In this document: in pieces, positions 6,457 through 10,396 of the stretch | Position numbering within the stretch: position 1 is the first letter of the stretch | Layout: every line of letters begins with the position of its first letter | Origin: Acidobacteriota bacterium | GTDB taxonomy: Bacteria; Acidobacteriota; JAAYUB01 | Assembly (NCBI GenBank): GCA_017996395.1 | Contig: JAGOHA010000030.1 | Span: forward strand, 1 to 32,335 | Direction of reading: 5' to 3' | DNA length: 32,335 bases | Made by a program: the position numbers and the translations under genes | The notes under the pieces: model-generated | Told to the model about the DNA's origin: nothing | What the model saw: only the letters and a program-made list of their open reading frames with translations | Databases searched by the model: none

Positions 6457-7596
6457 TCATGCGCCCGCCCCGGCGGACGCCGTCAAGTCCTTGTGGTAGA
6501 TGCGGAACCGCTTGTAGCACTCGGAGCCGAGCATCTCCGCGGCGCGGTTCATCATGACGTTGTCTTCGAGCACCCAGCCGATCTCCGCATGATGGTAGCC
6601 CGCCGCCGTGCCCCGGGTGACGATGTCGTGGTAGAGCGCCGCCGCAAAGCCCATGCTCTGGTAATCCTTCAGGGAGCCCATGGCCAGCACCCGCAGCACG
6701 TTCAGCCGTCGCCTGGCGCGCAGCAGCCGGAGCCAGCCCAGCGGCAGCAGTCGGCCGCCCAGGTCCTTGAGGATCAGATTCAGCTCGGGGAGCGCCAGGA
6801 GGAAACCCACCGGCTCGCCGCCGCGCTCGGCGATGTAGACAACGCGCGGATCCACCACCCACTTGAAGTCCGCGGCCATGGCGGCGATCTCCTCGCGGGA
6901 CATGGGCACGAAGCCCCAGTTGCTGCTCCAGGCGTCGTTGTAGACCTTGAAGATCCGGTCGATCTCCTCGTCGAGGCGGTCCATCCGGATATCGCGCGTG
7001 GTCAGGCCGTACCGCTGCATCAGCCGGCCGGTGACGCTGGCCAGCTTCTCCGGAAAGGGGTGGTCGTCGCTGAGCCAGTACGCCAGCAAATCCTTGGCCT
7101 TGACGAATCCCGCCGCCTCGATCAGCCCCGCGTAGTACGGGTAGTTGTACGGCATCATGAACGCCGGCGGACGGTCGAAGCCTTCGATGAGGAGGGCGCA
7201 CTCGTAGTTGGTGGAGGGGCTCACCGGCCCCTGCAGGGCGGTCAGACCCCGACCGGCGCACCAGGCGGCCGCCGCCTCCAGGAGCGACCGGGCCGTGGCC
7301 GGGTCGTCCTCGGTTTCGAAGAAGCCGAAGAAGCCGGTGGCGTCGTGACAAAATTCGTTGTGGGCCCGGTTGTGGATGGCCGCCACCCGGCCCACCGGGC
7401 GGCCGTCGCGCTCCGCCAGGAAAAACTCCGCCGTCGCCTGCCGGTAGAACGGGTGACGCCGCCGGTCCAGCAGCCGCCGCTGATCGTACCGCAGCGGCGG
7501 GACCCAGTGGGGGTGCCCGGCATAGTGCCGGTACGGGAACTCGATGAAGGCGCGCAGATCGCGCGCGCCGGACACCGGCCGAACCGTCGTCGTCAT
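6457..7596 (-). CDS. GNAT-fold N-acetyltransferase-like protein
   Basis: A 379-residue protein resembling the YghO-like GNAT family. Visible features are FIEFPYRHYAGHPHWVPP near the N-terminus, FFLAERDGRPVGRVAAI near 60-76 (the acetyl-CoA-binding beta strand pattern of one GNAT unit), GPVSPSTNYECALLIEGF, and a second GNAT-like half containing VVYIAERGGEPVGFLLALPELN and a C-terminal GWVLEDNVMMNRAAEMLG. The donor and acceptor substrates are unknown. I start it at the ATG at 7596, which has GGGAG 8 bases upstream, rather than at the ATG 15 bases earlier, which lacks a ribosome-binding site. It follows hflX by 27 bases and is likely co-transcribed with it. Confidence 0.82.
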   Translation of the reverse strand: MTTTVRPVSGARDLRAFIEFPYRHYAGHPHWVPPLRYDQRRLLDRRRHPFYRQATAEFFLAERDGRPVGRVAAIHNRAHNEFCHDATGFFGFFETEDDPATARSLLEAAAAWCAGRGLTALQGPVSPSTNYECALLIEGFDRPPAFMMPYNYPYYAGLIEAAGFVKAKDLLAYWLSDDHPFPEKLASVTGRLMQRYGLTTRDIRMDRLDEEIDRIFKVYNDAWSSNWGFVPMSREEIAAMAADFKWVVDPRVVYIAERGGEPVGFLLALPELNLILKDLGGRLLPLGWLRLLRARRRLNVLRVLAMGSLKDYQSMGFAAALYHDIVTRGTAAGYHHAEIGWVLEDNVMMNRAAEMLGSECYKRFRIYHKDLTASAGAGA

Positions 7597-7623
7597 GACT
7601 GTCGCTCCCATCGCCGGTTTGGG

Positions 7624-9288
7624 TCAGCGGCTCCGCGCCGACACGGCGGCGGCGTCGAGCGCCGTGCGGATCTCGTCGGCCAGCCGCTCCAGGCCGTCGC
7701 CCCGCAGCGCCGACACGGTCAGGTCGCCGTATCGCTGGGCCAGGTGGGCCTGTTCGGCCGGGTCCAGCCGGTCGGCCTTGTTGAGCACCCGCAGCCGCGG
7801 GATCCCGTCCAGGCCGAGGTCGGCCAGCAACCGCTCCACGGTCAGGATGTGGTGGTCCCGCTGCGCGCTGGTGGCGTCGACCAGGTGAATGATCAGCGCC
7901 GAGTCCTCGATTTCCTCCAGCGTCGCCTTGAATGCCTCGAGCAGGGGCGGCGGCAGCTCGCGGATGAATCCCACAGTGTCCGAAACGATGACCTCCTGCC
8001 CCCACGGCAGCCGCATGCGCCGGCTCACCGGGTCCAGCGTGGCAAACAGCTTGTCCTCGACCGGGACCGCCGCCCGCGTCATGGCGTTCATCAGGGTGGA
8101 TTTGCCGGCGTTGGTGTACCCGATGATGGATACCACCGGCGCCCCCCGCCGCTGCCGGCCCAGGCGCCGCTGCCGCCGCGAGGTGCGGATCGCGGCCAAT
8201 TTCTGCGCCAGCAGGTCGATGCGATCCTTGATGCGGCGGCGGTTCACCTCCAGCGACGTCTCGCCGGGACCGCGGCCGCCGATGCCCCCGCTGAGGCGGG
8301 ACAGGGAGTCGTCGAACTCCACCAGCCGCGGCATCAGGTACTGGAGCTGGGCCAGTTCCACCTGGATCTTCCCCTCCTGGGAGCGGGCCCGGCGGGAGAA
8401 GATATCGAGGATGAGCTGGCTCCGGTCGATGACCTTCAGATCGGTCTCGCGACCGATGAGCCGGCTCTGGGTGGGGGTGAGGGTCTGGTTGAAGATGAGC
8501 AGGGTGGCGCCGAGCTGCATGCTCCGGGTGATGAGCTCCTGCAGCTTGCCCCGGCCCAGGAGGTAGCGGGGATCCAGGGAGGCGCGGCGCTGGACGAACC
8601 GGTCGATCACCTGCACGTCGGCGGAGTAGGCCAGCTCATCCAGCTCGTCCATCCGCTCGCGTTCGGTGTCCACGGGACCAGTGGTGACCCCCAGCAGGAT
8701 CGCCCGCTCCGCGTGCTCCTGGCGGCGGAGCTGCGAGGTCTTCCGGACGAACTCGCCCTCCAGGTCGCGGATGAAGGCCTCGTAGTTCAGGTCCAGCCGG
8801 TACACGTCGCAGGGCGGGAGCAGCCGCCACAGCTCGGGCCGGGCGGCGCCGCCCGGCGGATCGAAGTCGGGCGACAGGTGGGCGGTGTGCACCTGCCCGG
8901 GCCGGCCGTCGTCGGTGACATCCAGGGCGGTCATGGTGTCCAGCCGCAGGAGCGAGAGGTCCGTCAGGTCCTCCCGGCTCAGCCCCGCCTCGCCGAAATG
9001 GGTGTGGATGCACCGGAGGCCGCGGAAACGGCGCAGATCGGTGCGGATCCGCCGGAAGTCGGGCAGCTCGATCCGGCCGCGGTCCCCCACCACCACGTAC
9101 TCGACGGCGCCCTTCCGGTCCACCAGCACCCCCACCTGGCGCCGGATCTCGGCCGCGATCCGGGCCAGGCCCGCCGCGAACTCCGGCGTCAGCAGGCTCT
9201 GGGCCGGCAGGCGGCGCTGGTAGATTTTCTGAAGCTGGCGGATCTGGCTGGGCTTGAGTCCCGAGGTGTTGCCGTAGATCTTGGAGAT
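7624..9288 (-). CDS. hflX: GTPase HflX, apparently starting at an AUC codon
   Basis: HflX is a ribosome-associated GTPase that splits stalled or hibernating 70S ribosomes. About 554 residues: an N-terminal segment with IYGNTSGLKPSQI (5-17), the HflX linker GGIGGRGPGET (334-344), and a TRAFAC GTPase domain with P-loop GYTNAGKST (390-398), DTVGF, and NKAD in the C-terminal quarter. The conserved N-terminus is in frame only as far as position 9288, because a TGA lies at 9292-9294. No ATG, GTG or TTG exists in frame before residue 50, yet GGAGG (9295-9299) stands 6 bases upstream of an ATC codon. The best start is therefore that ATC; an in-frame GTG at 9135 would drop a conserved domain. It follows the Cys-rich gene with only 3 bases between stop and start. 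Confidence 0.9.
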   Translation of the reverse strand: MSKIYGNTSGLKPSQIRQLQKIYQRRLPAQSLLTPEFAAGLARIAAEIRRQVGVLVDRKGAVEYVVVGDRGRIELPDFRRIRTDLRRFRGLRCIHTHFGEAGLSREDLTDLSLLRLDTMTALDVTDDGRPGQVHTAHLSPDFDPPGGAARPELWRLLPPCDVYRLDLNYEAFIRDLEGEFVRKTSQLRRQEHAERAILLGVTTGPVDTERERMDELDELAYSADVQVIDRFVQRRASLDPRYLLGRGKLQELITRSMQLGATLLIFNQTLTPTQSRLIGRETDLKVIDRSQLILDIFSRRARSQEGKIQVELAQLQYLMPRLVEFDDSLSRLSGGIGGRGPGETSLEVNRRRIKDRIDLLAQKLAAIRTSRRQRRLGRQRRGAPVVSIIGYTNAGKSTLMNAMTRAAVPVEDKLFATLDPVSRRMRLPWGQEVIVSDTVGFIRELPPPLLEAFKATLEEIEDSALIIHLVDATSAQRDHHILTVERLLADLGLDGIPRLRVLNKADRLDPAEQAHLAQRYGDLTVSALRGDGLERLADEIRTALDAAAVSARSR

Positions 9289-9291
9289 GGC

Positions 9292-9780
9292 TCACCTCCG
9301 CCGGGGACGCGGCCGGGGCCGTCCGCCGCGCCGCTTCAGGTGGCGCTGGAACAGCGCGCGCATGCCGGGACGCCTGGCAGCGGCGGCGTCCGGCGCGGGT
9401 TCACTTTGGGCGAACGTTTCATGCAGCTCCCCGTCCTGCACCGTGACCCGGCCCTCGGTGCTTAGGCGCACCCAGTGGGTGCAATAGGCGCGCCATCGGC
9501 CGCCGCCGCACTGGCGGATGCAGAAGGTGTCGGTGTCGGTGCAATTGACGCATTCGCCCAGCAGCATGCAGATGCGCGGCACCAGCAGACCGCACGTCTG
9601 GCACTGGATGTACGGCTCGTCCATCGGCTCGAAGCGGGGGCAGTCCGCCCGCGCCCGGTAGTCCTCGATGTGGCCGAAGACGGTGCAGCCGTAAAACAGG
9701 CGGTCGGTCCGGCTGGTGGCCGAGTCCATGGACCGGAAGTCATCAAACCAGTTCCGACAGGTCCGGCAATCGACGATCAC
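9292..9780 (-). CDS. Cys-rich zinc-ribbon-like hypothetical protein
   Basis: A 162-residue protein with many paired cysteines: CRTC (5-8), CTVF..DCPRF, CQTCG, CVNC, then a FCIRQCGGG and YCTHW region. The pattern suggests two or three zinc ribbons or knuckles. The last 35 residues are Ala/Pro/Arg-rich and end in a strongly basic run, which could bind nucleic acid. It begins with GTG, preceded by GAGAGGT. Its stop codon lies inside the Shine-Dalgarno/start region of hflX, so translation of the two is likely coupled. I do not recognise the family. Confidence 0.75.
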   Translation of the reverse strand: MIVDCRTCRNWFDDFRSMDSATSRTDRLFYGCTVFGHIEDYRARADCPRFEPMDEPYIQCQTCGLLVPRICMLLGECVNCTDTDTFCIRQCGGGRWRAYCTHWVRLSTEGRVTVQDGELHETFAQSEPAPDAAAARRPGMRALFQRHLKRRGGRPRPRPRRR

Positions 9781-9874: not shown

Positions 9875-10396
9875 TCATCGGGTGCTACCGCCGGTCATCA
9901 AGGGATCCTCGAATGGGCTCGCCGGATCCCAGCCGCGGCGGATCAGCTTCAGGTGGACGTCGCGGCGACCGAAGCGGATGGCCTCCTGACCGGTGGGCAT
10001 GTAGATGTCCACCTCCCGGCCCTGGATCTCCGGACCGGTGTCCATGGCGGTGTAGATGCCGGAGTAGCCCTCGCCCTGGATCTCGACGATGGAACCGAGG
10101 GGCACCACGCGCGGATCCACCGCGATGATGCCCCGCCGGACCCAGACGCCGCTCTTGGTGATGCCGAAGACGGAGTAGGCGGTGGCTTCGAACGTCTGCC
10201 ATTCGCCGTCGTCGGACAGCGGTTCGATGACCGGCGGCGGGGCGGTCGCCGGGCGGTGGGGCTCCAGCTCCAGGCTGAAGGCGGCCTCATCGTCGATCGT
10301 GCGCGCAAAGATCACCCGGTTCTCCAGCGCCACGTAGGAGAACAGGATGACATTGAGCAACAGGATCAGCACCAGAATCGACTTCCGGATGTACAC
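9875..10396 (-). CDS. Membrane-anchored 3D-domain protein (possible peptidoglycan-active)
   Basis: A 173-residue protein with an N-terminal membrane segment (about 6-24, SILVLILLLNVILFSYVAL) that acts as a signal anchor. The rest is a 3D domain: FEATAYSV near 71-78, GIIAVDPRVVPLGS near 91-104, AMDTGPEIQG near 118-127 and EVDIYMP near 129-135. The three Asp residues (VDP, MDTG, VDIY) are those after which the domain is named. The fold is shared with MltA-type lytic transglycosylases and with RlpA and resuscitation-type proteins. It probably acts on peptidoglycan outside the cytoplasmic membrane. The start is GTG with GGAGG 6 bases upstream, and an AT-rich region with TATAAT (10430-10435) lies above it. 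Confidence 0.85.
   Translation of the reverse strand: MYIRKSILVLILLLNVILFSYVALENRVIFARTIDDEAAFSLELEPHRPATAPPPVIEPLSDDGEWQTFEATAYSVFGITKSGVWVRRGIIAVDPRVVPLGSIVEIQGEGYSGIYTAMDTGPEIQGREVDIYMPTGQEAIRFGRRDVHLKLIRRGWDPASPFEDPLMTGGSTR

Follow-up and report, generated by a model that had tools for sequence, protein, structure and literature searches.

Long-type hflX genes of several bacterial phyla commonly start at AUU, AUC or AUA, the start codon class of infC

Results

The hflX locus

The window, a stretch of 32,335 nucleotides, carries on its minus strand an hflX gene immediately downstream of a gene for a Cys-rich protein (Table 1). The predicted HflX product, (M)SKIYGNTSGLKPSQI..., scores 427 bits against the equivalog model TIGR03156 (GTP_HflX, cut-off 217) over residues 195-543, and its domains follow one another in the order PF13167 (N, residues 211-297), PF16360 (middle, 300-378) and PF01926 (G, 386-504). 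By analogy with its homologues, this HflX presumably splits 70S ribosomes (PMC9067457). The domains are preceded by a 190-residue N-terminal extension that is kept across phyla in alignments of long-type HflX proteins and was found in no solved HflX structure, the PDB matches starting at residue 187 or later.

Table 1. Features of the hflX start region and their positions in the window.
Feature	Position	Strand	Remarks
hflX coding sequence, 554 aa	7624..9288	-	ATC (read as fMet) to stop; homology match 7627-9288, open frame of 555 codons
N-terminal extension of long-type HflX, residues 1-190	8719..9288	-	conserved GNTxGLKPSQ motif, from alignment
First in-frame canonical start downstream, GTG	9133..9135	-	51 codons on; its use would lose 51 conserved residues
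Non-canonical start codon ATC	9286..9288	-	same codon in G001, G002 and G003; ATT, ATC or ATA in 241/320 homologues
TGA, stop of the upstream ORF	9292..9294	-	in the hflX frame, two codons ahead of ATC; kept in G001 and G002
Shine-Dalgarno sequence GGAGGTGA	9292..9299	-	overlaps the last codons and the stop of the upstream ORF
Cys-rich ORF, 162 aa	9292..9780	-	its distance from hflX would permit re-initiation coupling; homologues in G001, G002 and G003

On the minus strand the start region reads ...CGG CGG AGG TGA GCC ATC TCC AAG ATC TAC GGC AAC ACC TCG GGA CTC AAG... The GGAGG (9299-9295) lies 6 nt (TGAGCC) ahead of the hflX ATC and belongs to an 8-nt match to the complement of the anti-Shine-Dalgarno sequence, GGAGGTGA, at a spacing of 6; GCC (9291-9289) is the sole codon separating the TGA from the ATC. 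Between this TGA and codon 51 no ATG, GTG or TTG occurs in the hflX frame. Since an in-frame stop precedes the ATC by two codons, GGAGG is placed at 6 nt and the next canonical codon follows 51 codons on, we assign the start of hflX to the ATC, which confirms the preliminary description in taking this codon as the 5' limit of the frame. The predicted RNA fold of the 81-nt region at the hflX start was no better than that of shuffled sequences (z 0.37).

The same arrangement was found in near relatives. TGA-(G/C)CC-ATC-TCC-AAR-ATC follows GGAGG in two further species of the genus (G001, G002), and AGT-ATC-CAG-AAG-ATT does so in a member of another genus of the family (G003). The matching codon is ATT or ATC in most of the same-phylum relatives with a long-type HflX. 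Within the genus (three species), the Cys-rich gene ends 3 nt ahead of the ATC, and its last codons contain the Shine-Dalgarno (SD) sequence, while in G003 the Cys-rich homologue ends 157 nt before the ATC and both SD and ATC are retained. No locus outside the family yielded a homologue of the Cys-rich gene. Its 162-aa product is without a Pfam or NCBIfam match, is kept within the family, with 47% identity to the G003 homologue, and possibly binds metal. Further upstream on the same strand (9875-10396) lies a gene for a 3D-domain protein (PF06725).

Start codons of long-type hflX genes

Long-type hflX loci were collected from Acidobacteriota, a named genome collection and the phyla of named Deltaproteobacteria, Nitrospirae, Myxococcota and Nitrospinae members, by similarity to one HflX subfamily; Firmicutes, Cyanobacteria, Chloroflexi and others lie outside this sample. 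After duplicate removal 322 loci were retained and 320 labelled, counts in which near-identical species may persist. We refer to ATT, ATC and ATA as ATH and to ATG, GTG and TTG as canonical. For the 320 loci, which belong to Acidobacteriota, Desulfobacterota, Nitrospirota, Myxococcota, Nitrospinota and others, the assignment of ambiguous cases by SD placement gave 241 starts at ATH (ATC 111, ATT 99, ATA 31), 73 at a canonical codon and 6 at another triplet. ATH prevails over canonical starts in each of the larger phylum sets: 62 vs 15 in Acidobacteriota, 57 vs 15 in Desulfobacterota, 57 vs 7 in Nitrospirota and 21 vs 5 in Myxococcota. In a further small phylum, four genomes have ATC, two of them (L445, L447) directly after TAG, and two have TTG. 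Within the nine codons ahead of the conserved Gly of the GNTxGLK motif, ATH is present without any canonical codon in 227 of the 322 loci. Judged by these comparisons, long-type hflX genes of at least five phyla usually start with AUU, AUC or AUA, and this codon class has long been kept. Some lineages can do without the device, as 73 of the 320 homologues have ATG, GTG or TTG.

The six hflX copies that are neither canonical nor ATH have ACG (L046, L185, L201) or CTG (L099, L377, L380) at the expected position, with an SD-like stretch before several of them. In short-type HflX of Acidobacteriota (L019-L030), inspected by eye, ATG or GTG candidates were present in most loci and a few were ambiguous.

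Evidence that ATH is the start codon

Conservation of ATT, ATC or ATA is by itself insufficient, as an internal Ile codon would vary likewise; the assignment is decided by stops, SD placement and the lack of canonical starts. In 159 of the 241 ATH loci the stretch from the upstream in-frame stop to the ATH is free of canonical codons, and in 21 loci this stop precedes the ATH by one codon at most, e.g. AAGGAGGAATAA-ATT-AAC-AGA. An SD was found at the correct position of 235/241 ATH starts vs 14/73 canonical starts; in the strict sets the counts were 220/226 and 9/37, respectively. An SD of at least 5 nt at a spacing of 5-9 precedes 64.8% of the true ATH positions vs 0.4-1.3% when the anchor is shifted by 9 or 12 nt. 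The position of the SD tracks the ATH codon across the 227 ATH-only loci. In several loci, L090 and L197 among them, an ATG abuts the SD, too close for use, and the ATH stands at a spacing of 7.

These data bear on two explanations in which hflX would not start at AUC. The preliminary description had named an ATG-to-ATC sequencing error as the main alternative, and draft metagenome-assembled genomes do contain single-base errors; the three other genomes of the family nevertheless have ATC, not ATG, at this codon, and ATH predominates in the phylum. As relatives share the ATC, it is not an error, and we regard the probability of a true ATG as negligible. The other explanation is translation from a different codon, namely GTG 9135, GTG 9295 with a frameshift, or read-through or initiation upstream. 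Annotation programs restricted to ATG, GTG and TTG would pick GTG 9135, the first canonical codon in frame. With a start there, however, the protein would be without 51 residues that are conserved in several phyla, and in the ATH-only loci, where the SD tracks the ATH, the first canonical codon downstream lies a median of 32 codons away, within conserved sequence. We thus reject GTG 9135 as the N-terminus. A frameshifted start from GTG 9295 was likewise discarded, as this codon is out of frame and is not kept in relatives. Initiation at any of these codons is highly improbable.

Comparison with infC and frr

The same SD scoring was applied to infC, and the best SD-supported start was ATH in 29 of 31 loci, the source genome included. 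The infC gene of the source genome (L141, G000:C166, about 7280-7819 on the plus strand) has ATT after AGGAGG and no in-frame canonical codon back to the stop. Der/EngA proved a poor control due to long open N-terminal extensions in many Acidobacteriota copies; the ribosome-recycling gene frr of Desulfobacterota was used instead, and ATG or GTG was found in 28/28 loci, mostly with an SD. Hence the ATH effect is due neither to the genomes nor to the method. As infC is mostly ATH and frr always canonical under the same procedure, we group hflX with infC among the genes with IF3-discriminated starts: it has a triplet without a 3' G, a strong SD at spacing 6 and a conserved codon class. The analogy with infC that the preliminary description drew for the AUC start is thereby strongly supported.

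Evolution of the start codon and its relation to the SD

On a FastTree phylogeny of the HflX N-terminal domain (about 140 aa), which is approximate only, parsimony gave about 67 changes among ATT, ATC and ATA, about 13 from ATH to ATG and 2 from a canonical codon to ATH; the ATH/canonical label changed 24 times. With about five-fold more changes within ATH than to ATG, the third base of the hflX start wanders between T, C and A and is rarely replaced by G. The scarcity of SD sequences before canonical starts suggests, at the level of sequence, that hflX initiation is held weak one way or another. On phylogenetically independent pairs, the link between codon and SD was not significant (median p 0.22 with 7 supported pairs, an underpowered comparison). 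The hflX copies with ATG (L066, L069, L082, L088, L098, L104 and others) are mostly without a recognisable SD. In L066 and L069 a TATAAT-like box lies about 16 nt 5' of the ATG, and some of these genes may be nearly leaderless.

Discussion

HflX splits 70S ribosomes and IF3 prevents the re-association of the 30S subunit (PMC9067457). IF3 also discriminates against start triplets without a 3' G and antagonises leaderless mRNAs (PMC4611024). We consider it probable that translation of hflX starts with fMet at the conserved AUC placed by the SD, and that rejection of this codon by IF3 keeps HflX scarce and tied to IF3 and the 30S subunit. The strong SD would position the 30S subunit on the AUC, with fMet as the first residue, and IF3 bound to the 30S subunit would reject this codon as it does in infC, making initiation inefficient. 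Initiation on hflX would then drop as the occupancy of the 30S subunit by IF3 increases, so that the ribosome splitter would be kept scarce and its synthesis linked to how IF3 and free 30S subunits are balanced. In the source genus, re-initiation after the TGA two codons ahead may contribute as well, a process that excess IF3 reduces (PMC2268962). Published IF3 biochemistry makes a low HflX level and its dependence on IF3 plausible. The sign of any feedback is uncertain, since splitting frees 30S subunits, IF3 would be titrated and initiation at AUC could rise.

The AUC start might also be real and merely set a constant low level of HflX, with IF3 not acting as a physiological regulator, a possibility to be taken seriously to which we give somewhat less than even chances. 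Start codon and SD strength can compensate for each other (PMC5622118), a weak codon with a strong SD or a strong codon without an SD would both give low initiation, and canonical hflX genes mostly lack an SD, yet Desulfobacterota frr combines ATG with an SD. For a constant low level, however, GTG, TTG or a poor SD would suffice, and instead the IF3-discriminated class with a strong SD is kept in 241/320 loci; the link between codon and SD is, moreover, the one that was not significant on independent pairs. The hflX genes with ATG and no SD are also compatible with control by IF3, as leaderless mRNAs are antagonised by this factor (PMC4611024). According to another explanation, which we consider unlikely, HflX is made mainly by re-initiation after the Cys-rich gene, whose translation would set its level. 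The position of the TGA and of the SD within the end of the Cys-rich ORF, kept in three species, is in favour of this, and an SD near the restart site increases re-initiation (PMC2268962). Against it, ATC and SD persist in G003, and the Cys-rich gene was detected within the family alone. The coupling to the upstream gene put forward in the preliminary description therefore fits the genus but neither G003 nor the loci outside the family: given that G003 keeps SD and ATC despite the 157-nt gap, any coupling would be a local addition and not the cause of the AUC.

Initiation at the SD-placed AUC under discrimination by IF3, which we prefer, leads to the tentative proposal of a small IF3 regulon defined by start codon identity, with hflX as an ancient second member beside infC in at least five phyla. 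If this holds true, ribosome splitting by HflX and the anti-re-association activity of IF3 would be adjusted jointly to the pool of free 30S subunits. What appears to be new here, from comparison of genomes, is that a second translation gene has a start of the infC type, and that this start has an unusually wide phylogenetic reach. Full-text searches turned up no paper pairing hflX with an AUU start codon, nor did a broader search return one, in literature where subscription papers and preprints were thinly covered. The conservation over several phyla is the main point, beyond what the reading of a single sequence could show, and a second translation gene with the same device suggests that IF3 fidelity may serve as a regulatory input beyond IF3 itself. 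Furthermore, gene callers limited to ATG, GTG and TTG should truncate or misplace the HflX N-terminus in these phyla, thus hiding part of a conserved domain that lies outside all solved structures found.

Among known systems, infC is the classic case of a conserved AUU, AUC or AUA start with a strong SD and IF3 autoregulation. Like infC, hflX has this codon class with a strong SD at 5-9 nt, conserved across phyla and present in the same genome, where infC itself has ATT, and both products act on ribosomal subunits. In contrast to infC, hflX encodes a ribosome-splitting GTPase, so that control by IF3 would be exerted in trans and not as autoregulation, and the ATH device has been lost in more lineages. 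E. coli pcnB, a gene unrelated to hflX, has an AUU start that limits its expression. The HflX described here exceeds the TIGR03156 cut-off and thus belongs to the same family as E. coli HflX, whose structure 5ADY matches residues 189-513; the E. coli protein differs in being without the 190-residue extension, its residue 4 corresponding to residue 189 here. In E. coli, hflX is one of the genes of the hfq operon, and heat shock raises the level of hflX mRNA about 5-fold (PMC9067457). Triplets lacking a 3' G are exceptionally rare as starts: a switch to AUU was seen in one survey for 1 of 61,358 ancestral AUG starts (PMC5622118). In S. aureus, cvfC1 (AUU) and ccpN (AUA) resemble hflX in combining a conserved non-canonical start with an extended SD; they have other functions, were described from Staphylococci (ccpN also from B. 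subtilis) and were demonstrated by experiment, whereas hflX was recognised by comparison alone (PMC13009471). The AUU and AUA starts of these two genes lower reporter yield relative to AUG, and infC of S. aureus has AUA (PMC13009471).
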